In this document: positions 9,799-22,781 of the stretch, piece after piece
Position numbering within the stretch: position 1 is the stretch's first letter
Layout: each line of letters starts with the position of its first letter
From: Gammaproteobacteria bacterium
GTDB taxonomy: Bacteria; Pseudomonadota; Gammaproteobacteria; UBA6429; Thiohalophilaceae
DNA: 64,000 nt
Assembly (NCBI GenBank): GCA_029881995.1
Contig: JAOULO010000014.1
Span: 1-64,000 of the forward strand
Reading direction: 5' to 3'
Translations under genes and position numbers: made by a program
The notes under the pieces: generated by a model
Database searches by the model: none
The model's input: the letters and a program-made list of their open reading frames with translations, nothing else
Told to the model about the DNA's origin: nothing

Positions 9799-10473
9799 CT
9801 CTCAGAAGCATATCTATAGTCCCTCTTTGAGTCCAAACAGCCTCTTTAGTTAGGAAACCTACTATAGATAAAGCTGCATAAAGCCAAATCACCGCTCTAG
9901 AAGTAGAAATTTTATAAAAAATACTGTTTGGGGTACCTGTTCCAAACAACTTATAGCGTCGTATTGAAGAAATTTTTTAATTTATGAGCAAATTTGGTGC
10001 TTGATAAGCTTAATTTGAGCTTCAAGTGTCAGAGATTCTATAAACTATTAGTAAATTAAATATAAAAATGTAAAGCAAACCGACATTTCTATAAAAAATC
10101 ATGTTCAGTTATTTATAAAATTGATCGTTTTTATAAAAATTTTTAACTTTAGCGCGTAAATTTTATAATAATTCTGCATTCAACAAGCTCTGTAATCCAT
10201 TTTTTACTACTTAAGCGTCAAAAATTTGTTCAAACTAGTAAAATATTTCTAAAAATCATAAAGATTTTGCATTCAAACATGAAATTTTTTCTTTTAAACG
10301 TCAAATTTTTGAAATTTTTTACTGAAAACTGTTTGTTTAAACGTTTTACACATCAAATTTTATAAAACTTATAGTAAACAGTAGCTAACATTAAAAAAAT
10401 AATGCATCACGCTAGCATTTTATGCTAACTTAGCTATACTCACGTAAACTCAGTGTCCAATGGAGGGTTGATA
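9799..10473. other. AT-rich gene-free spacer
   Basis: About 675 bp without a credible coding frame and far richer in A and T than its surroundings. TTTATAAAA-like words recur (for example near 9911, 10087, 10117, 10132, 10162 and 10359). A perfect 10-bp inverted repeat (TATCTATAGT 9811-9820, ACTATAGATA 9861-9870) brackets 40 nt just after the EVE gene. A second pair, TGTTTGG/CCAAACA, lies at 9925-9948, and TAGCAT/ATGCTA at 10413-10427 is just before a TATACT box (10435) for the next gene. It could be a promoter region bound by nucleoid proteins; nothing more can be claimed. Confidence 0.5.
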
Positions 10474-10737
10474 ATGGCAACCAAAAAGAAAACAGCAAAG
10501 AAAAAGGCTAAGAAGAAGACAGCCAAAAAGAAGACAGCCAAGAAAAAGGCTAAGAAGAAAGCAGCTAAAAAGAAAGTAGCTAAAAAGAAAGCAAAGAAAA
10601 AAGCCAAGAAAAAGGCTAAGAAAAAAGCCAAGAAAAAGGCTAAGAAAAAAGCCAAGAAAAAGGCTAAGAAGAAAGCCAAGAAAAAGGCTAAGAAGAAAAC
10701 CACAAAGAAAAAGGCCGCTCGTCGTAAAAAGCGGTAA
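10474..10737 (+). CDS. Lysine-rich histone H1-like repeat protein
   Basis: An 87-residue protein built almost wholly of KKKAK / KKKTA repeats, ending in AARRKKR; essentially only Lys, Ala, Thr, Arg and one Val. Such low-complexity basic proteins resemble the C-terminal tail of eukaryotic H1 and bacterial AlgP/HctB-type proteins, and are expected to bind DNA or RNA electrostatically and compact the nucleoid. GGAGGG at 10462-10467 precedes the ATG at 10474 at good distance. The repeats are near-identical at DNA level (AAGAAAAAGGCT units), so length may vary by slippage. Preceded by the AT-rich spacer and followed by a strong terminator, so it is a single-gene unit. Confidence 0.85.
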   Translation: MATKKKTAKKKAKKKTAKKKTAKKKAKKKAAKKKVAKKKAKKKAKKKAKKKAKKKAKKKAKKKAKKKAKKKAKKKTTKKKAARRKKR

Positions 10738-13483: not shown

Positions 13484-14926
13484 TTAGAAAATTACCAGAA
13501 TCTGGGCAGACAGACGGTCATCTACACTATCCAGAATCTTATTGGCATTATGGTCAGCCGGAAGATTGGGTGCCTCTGCCTCACGCTGCTCATAGTTAAT
13601 AATCAGGCGACTTTTCTTGTTAAAGAAATACTGTACACCAAGGGTATTTGTTTCAAATTTACGCTCCTTGGCAGCAACATCTGTCATACGATTATATTCA
13701 TCATAACGGAAGTCAACTTCCAGTTTTGGTGTAATGGCATAGCCAACATGGAGATACATACCATCTGCTTTACCAATTGGTTCCATGTTGAACGAAGCAT
13801 TTAGCTGACCATCACCGCCCACATCACCATTGGTTGTGAACTTTCCAGCTGCACCAGCAGGTAATTTGGATTTTGTTCCAGCCACTGCACCACCGTCTGT
13901 TCCATTAAAGATCATACCATCTGCCTTAATGGCCTCAAATGCGGCACGGTAGTTTCCCTTTTTAAAGGTAAAACCATAACCTGAACGTTTGCGGTCAAAT
14001 TGTTTTTCTTCATCATCAGATGCAACGGCATTTCCCTTTTCCAGGGTCAGATTGCGTTTACCTTCCTGATTCCAGGCAAACAGCTTAAATCCCTGGCGAC
14101 GGGGTCCTTTACCACCAAAGACTTTTTCAGTAGAAAGATAGGCATAAGTTTCCATTTCTCCATCATTATCACCGCGGGTAATCCCATTTCCGTTACCAAC
14201 CATATAAGCATAGCTCGTATCCCAACCACTCAGGTTAAATGAGTTGAATACCTGAATACCTGTATCGCGAAAGGCACCAACTGGGCCAGTCGGCTTGTTC
14301 ACCTGTCCACTGTCAGAGGCTGTATTTGGACCAGCATTGGGACTAACAAATGTACCTGAACCATCATATTTGAAGAAACGCTCAAGTAACAGACCATTTG
14401 TGGCACCCGTAAAATTGATATAGTCAAAAACGTGAATGGCCTGCAGACCTTCTTCAGAACCCGGTGTCTTGAATGTACCGACTCGGAAACGTGCAAAATC
14501 TTTTAAGTGGTTTAAAGTGACACTGGCATCGGTCACTTTGGCACTGCCACCATCACCACGGGTAATACCATTATTACCAAATTCTGCCAGTAAAAAATAG
14601 TTAACATTGCTATCAAGTGGCATACCAGTGCCACGCACACCTAATCTGGCACGTAACATATTAAAACCTTCACTAGATTTAAGATCCGGACGCATCTGGT
14701 TGAGGATCATGTCCTCGCCCTTCCAGGGACCAGCTTTGATTTTTGTACCATCCGTTTTGGTGTATTCAGGTTGTATAAAACCCCAGACTTTGGCTCTCGG
14801 TGCAGAACCTTCAGGTTCAGTACCCTGTAGCATCAACCAGTTGGCGGCATTGGCAGGTGCAACTATACCTCCCAGCATAGTCGCCAAAATTGCCGAAGAA
14901 GCAACTTTTGATAAATTTATTTTCAT
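13484..14926 (-). CDS. Outer-membrane porin, OprO/OprP-like
   Basis: A 480-residue outer-membrane barrel with a signal peptide (cleavage near PANA-ANW) and alternating strand pattern; the C-terminus ends QILVIF, with the terminal Phe needed for barrel insertion. The overall layout (VWGFIQPEY, MLRARLGVRGTG, FRVGTFKTPGSEEGLQ) resembles phosphate-selective porins O and P, although the conserved lysine ladder cannot be assessed by eye, so substrate is open. It is 48 bp downstream of the secreted DsrE-family gene and in the same direction, with GGGGAG before the ATG, so both are expected to come from the ECF-type promoter at 15510-15535. Its position beside a sigma/anti-sigma pair suggests stress-controlled expression. 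Confidence 0.75.
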   Translation of the reverse strand: MKINLSKVASSAILATMLGGIVAPANAANWLMLQGTEPEGSAPRAKVWGFIQPEYTKTDGTKIKAGPWKGEDMILNQMRPDLKSSEGFNMLRARLGVRGTGMPLDSNVNYFLLAEFGNNGITRGDGGSAKVTDASVTLNHLKDFARFRVGTFKTPGSEEGLQAIHVFDYINFTGATNGLLLERFFKYDGSGTFVSPNAGPNTASDSGQVNKPTGPVGAFRDTGIQVFNSFNLSGWDTSYAYMVGNGNGITRGDNDGEMETYAYLSTEKVFGGKGPRRQGFKLFAWNQEGKRNLTLEKGNAVASDDEEKQFDRKRSGYGFTFKKGNYRAAFEAIKADGMIFNGTDGGAVAGTKSKLPAGAAGKFTTNGDVGGDGQLNASFNMEPIGKADGMYLHVGYAITPKLEVDFRYDEYNRMTDVAAKERKFETNTLGVQYFFNKKSRLIINYEQREAEAPNLPADHNANKILDSVDDRLSAQILVIF

Positions 14927-14974
14927 TAGAAATCTCCCCTAAAACATTTATTTGTTTCGAATAAGTAAGTGTGC

Positions 14975-15421
14975 TTATGGTTTTACGAGGGTGTAACCCT
15001 GCTTGACCAGATCAATAATCCTGACCACACCGGCATCAACCTTGACTGCATGTTGATTCAGTTCTGGATCACTACCCAGTTTCTTTGCCATGTTTTTTAT
15101 TGTGTTTTTACAGGCACTAAAGCGCACACCGTTACTGACCAGACTATTCACACGACCTTTATTGGAATTTTCTGCAAACAACAGTCTTAGACCTGGTCCA
15201 AAGGCAACGATCTCAACATCCACTTGATCAGGGCCATAGTGCTTGATCAGGTTATTGGCCACATTCAGGACAAGCGTCTGTTTAAATGGATTAGGATCAC
15301 TGATTTGCAATACCACTTTCTTATCAGCAAACGATTTTTTAGCAGCCTGTGCGTTGAAGCTTGTCAGCATCATGCCAAGCGATAGACAGGTAGCGATTAA
15401 CGCTACGATTGAACGTTTCAT
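14975..15421 (-). CDS. Periplasmic DsrE-family protein
   Basis: A 148-residue exported protein: signal peptide (about 1-26, ending NAQA), then a single DsrE/TusD-like alpha/beta domain (KKVVLQISD, VEIVAFGPGLRLL, GVRFSACKNTIKN, QGYTLVKP). Family members of this periplasmic type keep one cysteine in an AC-x-NT-like motif, here Cys104; it can carry sulfur or act in redox in relatives, but the reaction here is unknown. The start at 15421 is chosen because GGGGAG precedes it and because it begins the signal peptide; the open frame to 15541 is discarded. It is the first gene of a two-gene unit with the porin and divergent from the sigma factor gene. Its domain looks homologous to the C-terminal part of the anti-sigma factor at 16256. 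Confidence 0.85.
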   Translation of the reverse strand: MKRSIVALIATCLSLGMMLTSFNAQAAKKSFADKKVVLQISDPNPFKQTLVLNVANNLIKHYGPDQVDVEIVAFGPGLRLLFAENSNKGRVNSLVSNGVRFSACKNTIKNMAKKLGSDPELNQHAVKVDAGVVRIIDLVKQGYTLVKP

Positions 15422-15509
15422 GGATTTTCTCCCCAGCTTGTTAGATTTAATACAAAAATAATTATTTTTTAATTCCCTTCCATGGGATCTTTGGTCTTTC
15501 AAATAGCTT

Positions 15510-15535
15510 GACGTAACAAGCTGAAGATTTATTCC
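15510..15535 (-). promoter_or_regulatory. ECF-type promoter for the dsrE-like/porin unit
   Basis: On the minus strand the sequence reads GTTTGGAATAAA (GGAAT at 15535-15531), a 17-nt spacer, then CGTC (15513-15510). The same -35-like block, spacer and -10-like block occur in front of the sigma factor gene on the plus strand. GGAA-containing -35 and CGTC-containing -10 elements are typical of ECF sigma factors. It lies about 90 bp upstream of the DsrE-like start. Confidence 0.75.
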
Positions 15536-15627
15536 AAACAATTTAAAATTTTTTGTATATTAGCTTTCAGTTATATATTAATAACTGTTAATTTAGAAAC
15601 AGTCTTAATGATCCCTGCATATAGTTT

Positions 15628-15653
15628 GGAATAAAAATCCCGCTTACCACGTC
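15628..15653 (+). promoter_or_regulatory. ECF-type promoter for the sigma/anti-sigma operon
   Basis: GTTTGGAATAAA with GGAAT at 15628-15632, a 17-nt spacer, and CGTC at 15650-15653, followed by AA. It matches the divergent promoter at 15510-15535 in both elements and in spacing, and lies 48 bp before the sigma factor ATG. This is the expected layout for autoregulation by the encoded ECF sigma factor. A sigma70-like TATAAT-type word (TATAAT at 15660-15665) is also nearby. Confidence 0.75.
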
Positions 15654-15701
15654 AATTGTTATAATGCGGTCCGGGGGATAACCAGCAACAGGGAATAAGC
15701 A

Positions 15702-16259
15702 ATGAAGAATCCAATATTGGGGTATTGCCAAATCCGGGACTTTAGACAGCGTCTATCCAATAATAGATCCAGGCTATACCGTCTGGCTTACAGTTGGTGC
15801 CATCAGCATGAACTTGCTGATGACCTGACCCAGGAGACAATGGCAAAGGCCTTAAAAAATATAAAACAACTTCGTGATCCAGAAGCATTGGACAGTTGGT
15901 TGTATGGGATATTAAACAACTGCTGGCGGGATTATCTGAGAGCAAAAAAGAACCTGGAAAATATCGATGATGTTGTCATGATAAATGAAGAAACCCCAGA
16001 ATCAACATTTGAAAGACAGGACCTGTGTAATATTATCCAGTCACAAATGCAGCAATTAAACTTAGGTCAACGACAGGTACTCAGCCTGGTTGACCTGCAG
16101 GGCTGCAGCTATGAAGATGTTGCCAAGGTTCTGGATATACCAGTTGGTACCGTAATGAGCCGACTATCAAGAGCAAGAAAAAATCTTGCCGACGCTTTGC
16201 TGGAATATAGACCTGTCAATACAGGTCAACATAATAAGATACTCAGGAGAATTGTATGA
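15702..16259 (+). CDS. ECF RNA polymerase sigma factor
   Basis: A 185-residue extracytoplasmic-function sigma factor. Sigma region 2 is at about 20-90 (RLYRLAYSWCHQHELADDL, then TQETMAKAL) and sigma region 4 at about 110-170, with the helix-turn-helix in YEDVAKVLDIPVGTVMSRLS. There is no region 3, as expected. It overlaps the anti-sigma gene by ATGA (16256-16259), so the two are translationally coupled. It probably drives its own operon and the divergent dsrE-like/porin unit from the twin GGAAT-N17-CGTC promoters. The ECF group cannot be assigned by eye. Confidence 0.92.
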   Translation: MKNPILGYCQIRDFRQRLSNNRSRLYRLAYSWCHQHELADDLTQETMAKALKNIKQLRDPEALDSWLYGILNNCWRDYLRAKKNLENIDDVVMINEETPESTFERQDLCNIIQSQMQQLNLGQRQVLSLVDLQGCSYEDVAKVLDIPVGTVMSRLSRARKNLADALLEYRPVNTGQHNKILRRIV

Positions 16260-16990
16260 ACGATAAAACTCAATTTTCTGATGAATACCTGAATGCCTAT
16301 CTCGATAATGAGTTGGCCTCATCAGATAAGGTACGATTGATTCGTGCATTACGCAGTGATGAAGAACTTAGTCGTAGACTCTGTCAGTTACAGCGCGTCA
16401 AGAACATGGTGCAACTGGCCTATCATGATATACAGCCTCCAAGGATTGAGCAGCCTGTCGCTACTGAAAAACAACCAACACAGGTATCGCGTTATGCCAT
16501 TGCTGCATCAATACTTCTGGTAATTGGTGTTTTTGCTGGCTGGCTGGCACACACCCACTTTCAAAAACCTGGGCTGACAGAAATCGTTCAGGAATTAAGG
16601 ACTAACACTCCAACTAATGGTAATCCATGGAAATTAATCGTTCAGGTGAGCTCCAATGACCAGCACCGTTACAATGTCTTGATGGATGAAACTGAGCGCC
16701 TGTTAAAAACGGCTCGTAGCAACAATGAGCAGGTTGTTATTCAGTTACTGGCCAACTCCAAAGGTATTGATTTACTAAAAAATGATAACTCACCTGTGTC
16801 TCTACGGATGCGTCAGTTAAGCAGACAATATAATAATCTGATACTCACAGCCTGTGGCCAAACATTGAAAAAACTGAAGCTTAACAACAAGCCCATACCT
16901 CAGCTATTAGACGACACAAAAGTTGTTCAGTCAGCTCTGCATGAGGCCATTCAGAAACAAAAGGCGGGTTGGACATTTATCAAGATATAG
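16256..16990 (+). CDS. Transmembrane anti-sigma factor with C-terminal DsrE-like domain
   Basis: A 244-residue inner-membrane protein. The cytoplasmic N-terminus (1-60) has the anti-sigma-like YLDNELASSDKVRLIRAL but no His-Cys-Cys zinc motif. One membrane helix spans about 80-99 (AIAASILLVIGVFAGWLA). The periplasmic part (about 124-244) follows the DsrE strand-helix order: WKLIVQVSSND, VVIQLLANSKGIDLL, NNLILTACGQTLKKL, AGWTFIKI. It lines up with the secreted DsrE-family protein encoded next door, including the Ala-Cys position (Cys200 here, Cys104 there). I infer that the periplasmic domain senses a ligand, partner or sulfur/redox state and controls release of the sigma factor. The role as anti-sigma comes from topology and 4-bp overlap with the sigma gene; the DsrE relationship is my own alignment by eye. 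Confidence 0.78.
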   Translation: MNDKTQFSDEYLNAYLDNELASSDKVRLIRALRSDEELSRRLCQLQRVKNMVQLAYHDIQPPRIEQPVATEKQPTQVSRYAIAASILLVIGVFAGWLAHTHFQKPGLTEIVQELRTNTPTNGNPWKLIVQVSSNDQHRYNVLMDETERLLKTARSNNEQVVIQLLANSKGIDLLKNDNSPVSLRMRQLSRQYNNLILTACGQTLKKLKLNNKPIPQLLDDTKVVQSALHEAIQKQKAGWTFIKI

Positions 16991-17000
16991 GAACTGTTTT

Positions 17001-20000
17001 TTACAGTAGAACCTGTTCGACACCACCACGGGCAATGTTTCGGATAAATTGCTTTTGCCAGTCTTTACCTTGCAGATTACTGACCAGTTCCACAACGATA
17101 TACTCTGTCTTCAGCCCGGTTGACGCTTCATAACGTGACAATCCCTGTTGGCAGGCAGGGCATGAGGTTAACAATTTAACTTCCTTTTTGCTGGCATGCG
17201 GTTTTCCTGTTAATGCCTGAATACTTTTACTCAGTTCCTCTTTCTTTCTAAATCGCACCTGGCTGGAAATATCCGGTCGAGACACGGCAAAGGTCCCCGC
17301 CTCACCGCAGCAGCGTTCAGTCAAACTCACCTCCTGCTTTAACAGGCTTGAGGCTACGCGTACCGGGTTATGTGTCTTCATGGGGGTATGACAGGGATCG
17401 TGATAGAGATACTTCATACCGGTGGCCTGCTCAAGCTGAATACCTTTTTCCATTAGATACTCATGAATATCCAGCAAACGACAACCGGGAAAGATCTTAT
17501 TAAACTGGTATTGCTGTAACTGATCCATACAGGTGCCACAGGAAACAATCACGGTTTTAATGTCCATGTAGTTGAGCGTATTAGCCACCCGATGAAACAG
17601 CACCTGGTTATCAACCGATATCTTTTTGCCCCTGGCCTCATCCCCACCGGCACTTTGCGGATAACCACAACAGAGATAACCCGGAGGTAAAACCGTCTCT
17701 GCACCGGACTCATACAGCATGGCCAGGGTTGCCAGGCCTATCTGACTGAACAGTCGCTCAGAGCCACAACCGGGGAAATAAAATACCGCATCCGAGTTAT
17801 CTGTCACCTTGTCAGGATCACGAAGAATCGCCACGGTCTTCGCATCTTCAAGGTTTAACAGGGCACGCATGGTCTTAGCCGGCACATTATCCGGCATAGG
17901 TGTTTTGACAAAATGCACCAGCTGGCTGGTGGTACCACTCTTACCTGTTGTCGAATGAGGAAGTTTTTTACCCTGGCGCGGTAACAGAACCTTTGCCAAA
18001 CGATAGGCCATGCGTTGCATGCGATAACCCAGTCGAATTGCCGTATTACGTAATAACTTAATGGCCGTGGGATCGGAGATATTCAGATACAACATGCCCA
18101 TCCAGGTACCAAAATTCCAGTTTTTCTTACCATGTCGACGCAGGATGGTGCGCATACTAACCGACACATCACCAAAATCGATATTCACAGGGCAGGGGTT
18201 CAGGCACTTATGACAGACGGTACAGTGATCCGCTATATCATTCATTTCCTCAAAATGGCGTATGGAAATCCCACGACGGGTCTGTTCTTCATATAAAAAG
18301 GCCTCGATAATCAGACCTGTGGCCAGGATCTTGTTACGTGGTGAATACAACAGGTTGGCCCTTGGGATATGGGTATTACAGACGGGTTTGCACTTACCAC
18401 AACGCAAACAGTCCTTGATGGCCGTATTCAGTTCACCAAGCTCACTGGCTTCAAGGATTAAGGCCTCCTGTTCCACCAGTCGCAAAGATGGGGTATAGGC
18501 ATTTTTCAGATCAGCATTTGCCCTTAGCTTGCCTGGATTAAATACATCATTTGGGTCGACCTTGTTCTTGTATTCAACGAAGTCCTTAATAATATCCTTA
18601 TCCAGAAACTCCAGTTTGGTAATACCGATACCATGTTCACCGGAGATCACACCTCCCAGGGATTCCGCCAGTTGCATAATACGGGCAACCACCCTTTCGG
18701 CCTCATGTAACATGGCATAATCATTCGAGTTGACCGGGATATTGGTATGCACATTGCCGTCACCGGCGTGCATGTGTGTTGCAACAAACAGGCGACTGGA
18801 ACGGACCTTGGTGTGGATTTCATCGAGTCGATCGCGAAGCGCATTGAACTCCCGACCATTGAATATGGTTCTCAGAGGATGGGCGATACGGTGACGGTAG
18901 GAGATACGAAAGGCCCGACGCTGCAGGAGACGAAAGACGGTATCGTCTTTTTGCAATTCACTTCTGGCCTGTTCATCCAGCAAATCCAGATATTGACTGG
19001 CTGGCTTGTCCATATCCTGTAATAACTGCTGCCACTGCGTCTTAACCGATTGCAGGAGGTCTTTCGCAGCCTGTAGCTTGTTTTCAATTAAATGTACTGT
19101 TTCCTCATCGCGATCCTCCGGCGCCTGACCAGCCACCACGGTGTAAAGCTCAGGAATATCTCCATCGAGATAAGCCAGCACCCCATCAATCATATCCAGT
19201 TTATTGCGCGTGGAAAGCTCGATGTTAATGTGTTCAATGCCATCGTTATAGTCAGCAAGCCGCGGCAGAGGAATCACCACATCTTCATTGATCTTGAAGG
19301 CATTGGTATGGGCCGCAATGGCCGCTGTGCGAGTTCTGGCTTCCCAGAAACGTTTGCGAGCCTCGGCACTGACCGCAATAAAACCCTCACATTCACGTTC
19401 GGCCGCCATCTCGATGACTTTATCGGCTGCCGTTGCGACACTGTTTTCGTCATCACCGGCCACATCCACCAGTAACACCATCTTGGGCAGATCCTGGCGT
19501 GAGGCCTTGGTGGTATAACTGACCGCTCGCACATAGCGCTCATCCAGATGTTCCATCCCCGCCAGTTGTACATCAGCAAGGCCATCCAGATAATCCTTGG
19601 TTTCGACGATGGCAGGCACCGCCTTGCGCAAGTCACTGCCAAAGAATTCGAGACACACGGTGCGAATAAACTTCGGCATCCGGTGTACCACAAAGCGGGC
19701 CGAGGTAATAATCCCATCACAGCCTTCTTTTTGAATACCGGGTAACCCTTCGAGAAACTTATTGGTGACGTCCTTGCCCAGACCCCGCTTGCGAAGCTTT
19801 ACCCCCGGAATACGCAGGATCTCAGGATCACAAAGTTCTGTCTTAGCATCGGCCGCATAATGGGTAATACGGAATAACACCTCGGGTTGTTCATGGATCT
19901 TGCCCAGATTATGGTTCAGCCTTTCTACTTCCAGCCAGTTGGCATCAGGTGTGACCATTTTCCAGGACACCAGGTTATCCAGGGTCGTGCCCCACAGCAC

Positions 20001-20867
20001 GGCCTTCTTACCACCGGCATTCATGGCAATATTGCCGCCGATGCAGGAGGCATCCTGCGAGGTGGGATCAACCGCAAACACATGCCCAGCTGACTCGGCC
20101 TGTTCTGCTACTCGGCGAGTCACCACACCGGCACCGGTCGCTATCACGGTAGCGGTTATTTCTGCCCCAGTATCGCTCGCCAAAAGGCTTGGCTCGGCAT
20201 CACCAACTTGATCCAGTTTTTCGGTGTTGATAACGACACAGTCATTACTCAATGGCACGGCCCCGCCGGTATAACCCGTGCCACCACCACGAGGAATAAT
20301 ACTCAGACCAAGTTCAATACAGGCCGCCACCACCTTTTGCACTTCCTGTTCCGTATCCGGATTGATGACCACCAGGGGAAATTCAACCCGCCAGTCCGAG
20401 GCATCGGTGACATGGGAGACCCGAGCCAGGCCATCGAAACCAATATTGTCCCGCCGGGTGACCTTGCCCAGTTTTTGGAGGATTTGCTTGCGTAATTTGC
20501 GCTGCCGGGGAAACCAGCCCTCAAATTCGGCAACCGCGCCACGGGCCTTGATGGCCAGGGTATGGGCCATGTCATTATCCCCGGCCCGGGCAAGAATCTG
20601 GTCCAGTCGGTGATGTAAGGCATGAATGAGCGACTCAAGACGGCGGGGATTGGACAATAAATCGTCCTGAATGAAGGGGTTACGAACTACCACCCACATG
20701 TCCCCCAGCACCTCAAACAGCATTCGGGCCGAACGACCAGTGACCCGCTCACCCCGCAGGGTATTCAGCACCTCCCACATCTCCTCACCCAGGAAACGAA
20801 TCACAATTTCCCGATCAGAAAACGAGGTGTAGTTATAGGGGATTTCGCGAATGCGGGTATCGGGCAT
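17001..20867 (-). CDS. FAD-linked oxidase / Fe-S oxidoreductase fusion (DUF3683-containing)
   Basis: A 1288-residue fusion related to D-lactate/glycolate dehydrogenases. Order: an N-terminal helical DUF3683 region ([20 protein letters not shown]); a PCMH-type FAD-binding domain with [15 protein letters not shown] near residue 192; an FAD-oxidase C-terminal domain ending in the histidine-rich [15 protein letters not shown] and SGEHGIG segments; two 4Fe-4S motifs, [11 protein letters not shown] near 822 and [12 protein letters not shown] near 882; then two CCG domains ([12 protein letters not shown] near 1032 and [15 protein letters not shown] near 1186). It probably oxidises a 2-hydroxy acid and passes electrons to the quinone pool. 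The ATG at 20867 is chosen by family fit; a TTG at 20891 is possible. Single-gene unit between two convergently or tandemly placed neighbours. Confidence 0.88.
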
Positions 20868-21040
20868 GAAAAACCAGTTAAATATTAGCAAAACCTGATT
20901 TTAGCATGGAAAAATAACTCAAAGGACAGATACAGAAGAAAAGAGTCAAGTTATTACACAGATAAAAAGAACTGGGAAATAAACTCTCAATCCTTCCTCT
21001 AAACAGTTTTGGATGTTTTTCATTTTATCAGATTCCAAAA

Positions 21041-21094: not shown

Positions 21095-22237
21095 TTAGAA
21101 GTCGACGCGCAGACCAACTGAAGTTACAGATCCGTCAACAGTCTTACTACCTGGAGTGTTGTTAGAATCTGACGTAGTGCTATGACCTACAAAAGCACGA
21201 GTCTTTTTGCTGAACTTATGGATTGCACCAATAGCCAGGTACTCAGTAGTGCTCTTGAAAGTATCTGCACTTGATTCACGTTCACCCAGCTGGGCAACAA
21301 ACACATTCTTACCCATCTTGAATTCAGCACCGATGAACATAACATCAGATTCCCACGCTTTAGAGTAGAAGCCAGTAGTTGCTGTAAATGCACCAGCACC
21401 ATCAGTCTGAGTCTTATTGTATTTCTGCTCAGTTGTTTCCAGCTGGAGCTTCAGCTTGAGGCTACCCATCTTGAACATACCACCGAACTTGCTAGCAGAA
21501 TATTCGCCAGAGTATTTATCATTGTCACCAGCAGCACCAAGGCCAAGGTCAGTTGTACCAGTAGTATGATCGTCTACTGCCATAGCATAGAAGGCTTCAA
21601 AGTTACCACCGTCATATTTAACAGACAGATTCATGTCGCCATCTCTACCTTTGGCTCCACCTTTTTCATCAAAGCTAGTGGCAACCCAGACAGAAATCGG
21701 ACCAAACTTGTTTTTATAGGCCAGGGCATCAGTAAAGAAGCCATGGTGACCAAATGAACCTGAAGTAGAATGACCACGATCAGTTGTTTTACCTGACATA
21801 CCACCGCGTGAACGGGCTTCCATGTAGGTTGTCACGAATGGGTCATACTTAACACCACCAGTATATTTGTATGGCTGTTTCAGAGCACCGGCTTCAACCG
21901 TACCGAAACCACCTTTCAGACCGACCATACCTACACGAGAACCATCATTAGGGTTACCCTGTGTAGTTTCAACCTGCCATTCGAAGTTGTAGATGGCGCT
22001 CATGCCATTACCCAGATCTTCAGAACCTTTAACACCTAAACGACCACGTTTGTTATCGTCAGTGCCCATGTAGCTAGAACCGGGAGTACCAGTATCTTCA
22101 TTAGCTTTCTTAGTGCCGCCATCGTCAATGCTGGCTACTTCAACCTGCAGGTGACCATAGACAGTTGGCTCAGCGCTTGCAGCCAGAGGTGCAGACAGAC
22201 CTGCAGCAACGGCCATTGCAATCAGTTTCTTATTCAT
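21095..22237 (-). CDS. General outer-membrane porin (Gram-negative porin family)
   Basis: A 380-residue 16-strand-type porin. Signal peptide at 1-22 (MNKKLIAMAVAAGLSAPLAA), mature start EPTVYGHLQVEVAS, then the typical porin blocks GRLGVKGSEDLGNGMSAIY and VGMVGLKGGFGTVEAGAL; the chain ends VGLRVDF with the terminal Phe. AGGAG lies upstream of the ATG at 22237; the open frame further up to 22303 lacks any signal-like start. It is a single gene with a strong terminator and a long AT-rich upstream region that probably holds its regulation. Ion selectivity cannot be read from the sequence. Confidence 0.93.
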   Translation of the reverse strand: MNKKLIAMAVAAGLSAPLAASAEPTVYGHLQVEVASIDDGGTKKANEDTGTPGSSYMGTDDNKRGRLGVKGSEDLGNGMSAIYNFEWQVETTQGNPNDGSRVGMVGLKGGFGTVEAGALKQPYKYTGGVKYDPFVTTYMEARSRGGMSGKTTDRGHSTSGSFGHHGFFTDALAYKNKFGPISVWVATSFDEKGGAKGRDGDMNLSVKYDGGNFEAFYAMAVDDHTTGTTDLGLGAAGDNDKYSGEYSASKFGGMFKMGSLKLKLQLETTEQKYNKTQTDGAGAFTATTGFYSKAWESDVMFIGAEFKMGKNVFVAQLGERESSADTFKSTTEYLAIGAIHKFSKKTRAFVGHSTTSDSNNTPGSKTVDGSVTSVGLRVDF

Positions 22238-22781
22238 AATATTTTTGCTCCTATTTCTTATTCTCGAGTAGTGAGTTTGAAATTTCAGAGTTAGGTTAAC
22301 CAAACTCGAACGTTTTTATACCTAAGTGAAACACAATAAGCAAATTTATTTTCTTAAACGCAACAAAACATAATTTTGTTGCGTTAACGCAACATTTCAA
22401 ACAGAAATACTTAATAACTGTATTTTTATTGAGATAAATTTATCCACAGTAATGATATTTGTAAGCTTATGTTTTATTTTATGTAAACGTATTTCGGATG
22501 AATTTTATACATGTGGATATTTAAATAAATGAACAAAACATGATCAATATATTTATAGTTCTTTATTGTTTATAAAATGAGACATACTTCACACTTATTT
22601 TATTATTTAATGAGTTGCTAATAGAGTTTTTATAAAAAATTATGATTTTAGATATACAGGAAGTTAATAAAGAAAATGATCACTAATAAAAGTTACGTCT
22701 AAATATAAAACGATTTAAATAATGATCAGATAAATGATCCGGCAGAAATGCCAACTAAAGAAATAAAATTAATACGAGATA
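22238..22781. other. AT-rich region upstream of the porin gene
   Basis: About 540 bp with no coding frame I can support. The base composition is very AT-rich, with GTTGCGTTAACGCAACA near 22378-22394 forming a perfect palindrome (TGTTGCGTTAACGCAACA from 22377). Such a symmetrical element 140 bp before a porin start could be an operator. The rest shows no clear structure. Confidence 0.45.

Follow-up and report, generated by a model that had tools for sequence, protein, structure and literature searches.

The window analysed here, a 64,000-nucleotide stretch of contig JAOULO010000014.1 from a gammaproteobacterium of the Thiohalophilaceae, carries four adjacent genes in two divergent pairs that code for a porin, a secreted DsrE-family protein, an extracytoplasmic function (ECF) sigma factor and a membrane anti-sigma factor with a DsrE-like C-terminal domain (Table 1). 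This module probably serves sulfur-oxidising bacteria as a sigma/anti-sigma switch: its periplasmic DsrE-type domain would read reduced sulfur and free the sigma factor. An earlier note on this DNA had described the four genes as a unit; open reading frame calls have confirmed them, strand by strand, and the comparative evidence makes the module stronger than first described. Its link to thiosulfate oxidation by the Sox system is new and had been overlooked in that note.

By sequence profile and predicted fold, the C-terminal half of the anti-sigma factor is a domain of the DsrE/DsrF-like family (PF02635). Single-sequence scans of the anti-sigma factor and of the porin gave no usable match, and alignments were used instead; by itself, the source anti-sigma factor matched neither PF02635 nor, usably, any other Pfam or NCBIfam family. 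A profile built from 37 homologues aligned residues 125-243 with MTH1491 (1l1s, DsrE/MTH1491 type) at an E-value of 4.2e-15, and of 63 homologues 26 gave a Pfam DsrE match at E≤0.1, the best being 1.3e-7. A BLAST search of 40 genomes from the same family found full-length homologues in most of them, together with stand-alone DsrE-like proteins that match the C-terminal half (down to 5.6e-11); among plasmid sequences, this half matched a protein annotated as DsrE. The AlphaFold model, calculated from a 63-row alignment (predicted local distance difference test, pLDDT, 89.6), consists of a helical N-terminus (helices 9-16, 22-34 and 36-56), the membrane helix listed in Table 1 and an alpha/beta domain from residue 125. 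When this domain was searched with Foldseek, 1l1s was matched at 9.3e-9, and all 7 PDB fold matches at E≤0.001 were of the DsrE/YchN type, an engineered derivative of such a protein included. Profile search and structure prediction, both named in the earlier note as checks on its proposal of a DsrE-like C-terminus, thus agree with it. One cysteine of the domain, C200 (codon 16853-16855), is invariant (63 of 63 homologue rows; 64 of 64 in another count); in the profile match it aligns with the cysteine of MTH1491, and it is a candidate sulfur-binding residue.

The N-terminal part, a putative anti-sigma domain, gave weak profile matches of residues 3-46 to RseA (8z6g, 0.018) and MucA (6in7, 0.024). 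At E≤0.1, zf-HC2 was found in 33 and RseA_N in 10 of the 63 homologues, the source protein lying below the cut-off, and the zinc motif HxxxCxxC of the ZAS subtype was present in none of the 63. A single hydrophobic segment lies near residues 80-98 of the source protein, with the hydropathy peak at residue 80, and a hydrophobic linker segment is shared by all 63 homologues. Co-encoded with an ECF sigma factor and having one predicted membrane helix, the protein is a candidate class I membrane anti-sigma factor (ASDI), which would inhibit the sigma factor by direct binding. The sigma and anti-sigma genes share a 4-base ATGA overlap. The sigma factor matches Sigma70_r2 (3.4e-15) and Sigma70_r4_2 (2.4e-16), both above the curated Pfam cut-offs, with just a short linker between regions 2 and 4, as the ECF class requires. 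A second sigma factor is encoded elsewhere in the source genome (L070, G000:C104), beside an anti-sigma factor with a similar N-terminal half.

The secreted DsrE protein has the same type of domain as the anti-sigma factor. Its profile matched MTH1491 (1l1s) at 1.6e-17, its AlphaFold model (pLDDT 92) gave 1l1s as the top Foldseek match (1.6e-9), and its C104 (codon 15110-15112) is invariant. The predicted models of both domains share the same strand/helix order and the same top PDB match. The source porin alone gave no Pfam match, PF07396 (Porin_O_P) included; this family was matched by 13 of 22 porin orthologues (best 3.6e-12). In the symbiont of the Riftia tubeworm, a porin (EGV52132.1) outranks all other proteins in abundance (PMC7787665). 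In seven loci (L134, L152, L159, L163, L176, L179 and L182), another gene for a secreted DsrE-like protein is located directly upstream of the conserved one; its product shares about 28% identity with the source protein and has its own conserved cysteine. A DUF302-type gene lies near the porin in 9 loci.

Conservation of the module was analysed in 80 loci of named genomes, gathered with the secreted DsrE alignment and mostly from sulfur-oxidising Gammaproteobacteria (Thiohalobacter, with the cultured T. thiocyanaticus Hrh1 as L180, Thiogranum, Sedimenticola, Thiolapillus). All four genes were found in the divergent order porin-DsrE/sigma-anti-sigma in 65 of the 80, which places the arrangement far beyond chance, and the co-conservation that the earlier note had wanted surveyed is therefore well established. 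The porin adjoins the secreted DsrE gene in 79 of 80 loci; the flanks vary, no other neighbour being shared by more than 13 loci. In 3 loci without the sigma gene the contig stops no more than 200 bases upstream of the DsrE gene, and in a few others cytochrome c or other genes take the place of the sigma-anti-sigma pair. L120, L160 and L161 are DsrE-porin pairs of this kind, with cytochrome c genes upstream. Paralogous sigma-anti-sigma pairs with no DsrE-porin pair beside them were also found (L054-L060, L062).

Both source operons are preceded by the sequence GGAATA-N16-CGTC in divergent orientation, and this conserved upstream motif suggests that the source sigma factor recognises GGAATA and CGTC elements. 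GGAATA-N15/16-C[G/A]TC was present in 93 of 136 upstream regions of named loci, against 0.27 expected from shuffled sequences; an opposite-strand control would be invalid here, the paired promoters being arranged face to face. The variable base of the -10 element is only G or A, and facing promoters usually agree (GG 26, AA 9, AG 5, GA 0). The CGTC form was found in 41 of 68 loci with the sigma gene versus 1 of 9 loci without it. An absence of the sigma promoter from loci without CGTC is rejected, because many of these loci use CATC. Two sigma subgroups are distinguished among L105-L184, with CGTC or CATC as the -10 element and the same GGAATA as the -35 element; residue 77 of the sigma factor (Asp versus other) tracks the -10 letter, a hint confounded by phylogeny.

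The exact CGTC pattern occurs 4 times in the 3.5 Mb source genome; two matches are intergenic and constitute the divergent pair, and the other two lie inside other genes. The conserved paired promoters, together with the fact that they are the only intergenic exact matches genome-wide, make the porin and the secreted DsrE protein very likely targets of the sigma factor in the source organism, and the scarcity of matches to this strict motif points to a regulon of very small size. With 16 matches in this genome, the CATC form belongs to the common background and was not used to assign targets there. The idea in the earlier note that the porin is the output of the circuit gains support from the same promoters; its wider interpretation holds in part, with the DsrE domain as the presumed sensing element.

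Among 370 surveyed genomes of the class with a completeness of at least 90%, 73 encode a full-length anti-sigma factor, and these are distributed over about 40 family-level groups. As raw counts, 73 of these 73 genomes contain dsrA or soxB and 72 contain soxB, and the anti-sigma factor was found in none of the 198 surveyed genomes lacking both genes. In some relatives the module lies within sox clusters. In L185 it is located beside soxX, soxZ, soxA and soxB, the promoter motif lies 37 bases before soxX, and the porin gene is followed by one resembling sulfur transporter genes; in L205 the sigma and anti-sigma genes are followed, on one strand, by a DsrE gene, a cytochrome gene, soxB, soxX, soxY and soxZ; and in L207 they are followed by a SoxX-like cytochrome gene, soxA and soxB.

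A motif search in 68 anti-sigma-positive genomes gave matches directly upstream of soxB in several of them. Reading of 15 regions revealed two recurring motif sites, one ahead of soxX and the other separating soxA from soxB (L224-L227, L229-L233, L235-L238); 10 of these regions had been picked for a nearby match, and 4 of the 5 others have the motif. A contrast set combined 40 further soxB regions, taken from 37 positive genomes, with 40 regions of negative genomes. At a distance of at most 400 bases from soxB, the exact motif was found in 6 of 40 positive and 0 of 40 negative regions (Fisher p=0.026), and over the whole soxB upstream region the counts, 6 versus 2 in the same 40 and 40, did not differ significantly. 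With a weight matrix trained on the module promoters only, 10 positives scored at least 12, the best negative reached 7.1, and 12 of the 40 positive upstream regions exceeded the 97.5th percentile of the negatives (Mann-Whitney p=0.004). Predicted control of sox genes by the sigma factor is therefore well supported for part of the relatives, not for all.

Table 1. Features of the four-gene module, in window positions.
Feature	Position	Strand	Basis
Outer-membrane porin, distant Porin_O_P type, 480 amino acids	13484..14926	-	Open reading frame call; second gene of the DsrE-porin operon
Secreted DsrE-family protein, 148 amino acids	14975..15421	-	Start codon ATG at 15421; signal peptide of the Sec type with AQA-A at its end
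Predicted ECF promoter of the DsrE-porin operon, GGAATAAATCTTCAGCTTGTTACGTC	15510..15535	-	Motif; conserved in orthologous loci
Predicted ECF promoter of the sigma-anti-sigma operon, GGAATAAAAATCCCGCTTACCACGTC	15628..15653	+	Motif; conserved in orthologous loci
ECF sigma factor, 185 amino acids	15702..16259	+	Pfam regions 2 and 4
Membrane anti-sigma factor with predicted periplasmic DsrE-like domain, 244 amino acids	16256..16990	+	Profile, fold, BLAST
Anti-sigma residues 1-56, putative cytoplasmic sigma-binding domain	16256..16423	+	Weak RseA/MucA profile matches; helices
Anti-sigma residues 77-101, predicted single transmembrane helix	16484..16558	+	Model helix; hydropathy
Anti-sigma residues 124-244, DsrE/MTH1491-like domain	16625..16987	+	Profile over 125-243; Foldseek

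Other genes of the window were also noted. A large fused flavin adenine dinucleotide (FAD)-linked oxidase with iron-sulfur and cysteine-rich domains, DUF3683 and DUF3400 is encoded at 17001-20891 (-); its gene ends 11 bases from the anti-sigma stop codon and, with ilvA and rpiA, is a recurrent neighbour in many genomes of the family. A second porin, of the Porin_4 type and unrelated to that of the module, is encoded at 21095-22303 (-). The gene at 10453-10737 (+) codes for a small protein made almost entirely of lysine-alanine repeats (KKKAKKK...), with a histone-H1-like appearance and no Pfam match.

In the proposed switch, the N-terminal domain of the anti-sigma factor would keep the sigma factor at the membrane when no signal is present. 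Reduced sulfur in the periplasm, either thiosulfate or sulfane sulfur made by Sox, would be read by the DsrE domain; either C200 would be modified (persulfide or thiosulfonate), or the domain would contact its secreted DsrE homologue. The single membrane helix would relay the change, possibly by regulated proteolysis as for RseA, and the sigma factor would be freed to act on GGAATA-N15/16-C[G/A]TC promoters, namely those of its own operon and of the divergent DsrE-porin operon, joined in many relatives by those of soxXYZA and soxB. The porin may pass a sulfur anion across the outer membrane, and the secreted DsrE protein may carry or buffer the signal sulfur. In its most specific form, with the DsrE-fold anti-sigma factor directly sensing periplasmic thiosulfate or sulfane sulfur through C200 and controlling Sox in many families of sulfur oxidisers, the proposal is tentative, and we stop short of calling it probable. 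Precedents for such cysteine chemistry exist in the family, since the conserved Cys78 of A. vinosum DsrE bears a persulfide (PMC3397948) and a Cys-S-thiosulfonate is formed in archaeal DsrE3A (PMC4175335).

Several points weigh against this reading. Most of the 40 positive soxB upstream regions are without the exact motif. The source genome carries dsrA and soxB, and the upstream region of its soxB (L220) has no motif match and a weight-matrix score of -2.9; its soxA begins at base 370 of its contig, so that the start of that operon is unreadable. For these two reasons sox control is claimed for part of the relatives and not for the source organism. The 73 of 73 association was left uncorrected for the relatedness of the genomes. 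The source anti-sigma factor and the source porin, taken alone, fall below the Pfam thresholds, and the domain call for the former derives from profiles and a predicted fold. Its anti-sigma activity and its orientation in the membrane we infer, and the working of C200 like Cys78 of DsrE, structural equivalence included, is argued by analogy.

Among the alternatives, the best surviving one, which we regard as unlikely, makes the secreted DsrE protein the sensor and the DsrE domain of the anti-sigma factor a docking module that would co-oligomerise with it, in the manner of RseB on RseA, the sulfur-loaded or empty state of the secreted form setting the release. DsrE-family proteins do oligomerise, DsrEFH being a hexamer (PMC3397948), the two proteins are encoded next to each other in most loci, and their domains have a common strand/helix order. 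However, some sigma-anti-sigma pairs (L054-L059) have no adjacent secreted DsrE gene, which could lie elsewhere, and a pure docking domain need not retain a cysteine, whereas C200 is invariant.

It is less likely still that the module is a general envelope-stress or redox switch of the RseA/MucA type, with the DsrE fold merely structural or dimerising and the sulfur link a phylogenetic coincidence. The weak RseA and MucA matches of the N-terminus, the RseA-like topology and the mutual relatedness of sulfur oxidisers are compatible with such a switch, but the co-occurrence with dsrA or soxB in every positive genome, the presence of the module promoter upstream of soxX and soxB, the modules located within sox clusters and the invariant cysteine argue against it. 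A switch for an anion or nutrient (for instance, sulfate or phosphate limitation) with the porin as its sole purpose is very improbable, for although the porin belongs to the Porin_O_P group and is the steadiest partner of the secreted DsrE protein, the sigma promoter of the relatives also precedes soxX and soxB, and the DsrE fold is not known to have a role in relation to phosphate.

No anti-sigma factor with a DsrE domain was found described in the open-access papers searched. The module resembles RseA/RpoE and MucA/AlgU in its tandem sigma and anti-sigma genes, single membrane helix and non-zinc N-terminal domain, and differs from them in the predicted periplasmic DsrE fold with an invariant cysteine and in its promoter-defined targets, which are the secreted DsrE protein, the porin and, in relatives, sox genes. 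The sulfite-activated RpoE1/RpoE4 (ECF26) of Sinorhizobium meliloti also have a co-transcribed anti-sigma factor, a small autoregulated regulon and a response to sulfur compounds including thiosulfate; however, that anti-sigma factor is described as COG5662, the target is the sulfite dehydrogenase gene sorT, and DsrE domain and porin are absent from the description (PMC3511301). An apparent mention of DsrE in that work was an artefact, the matched word being 'DsRed'. In Arcobacter butzleri an ECF sigma factor, sigma2, up-regulates sox as part of a broad regulon that includes nap and hydrogenase (PMC3445524). SoxR of Hyphomicrobium denitrificans exerts sulfane-sulfur-responsive control of sox through cysteine modification, but it is a cytoplasmic ArsR-type repressor and not a membrane anti-sigma factor (PMC10451225). 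MTH1491 (1l1s), YchN (1jx7) and DsrEFH (2hy5) share the fold and have a conserved cysteine, which carries sulfur in DsrE; they are free proteins, whereas the domain of the module forms part of a transmembrane anti-sigma factor and would face the periplasm.

Thiosulfate sensing by sulfur-oxidising bacteria has been described as little known (PMC10451225). Here the predicted outer half of an anti-sigma factor has a sulfur-carrier fold and, in the most specific form of the proposal, a single protein would receive the sulfur signal and convert it into transcription. Since the candidate cysteine is invariant and both promoters and targets are defined, the question is directly testable. Being present in about 40 family-level groups, in genomes that all contain sox or dsr genes, the module could be a widespread sulfur switch.

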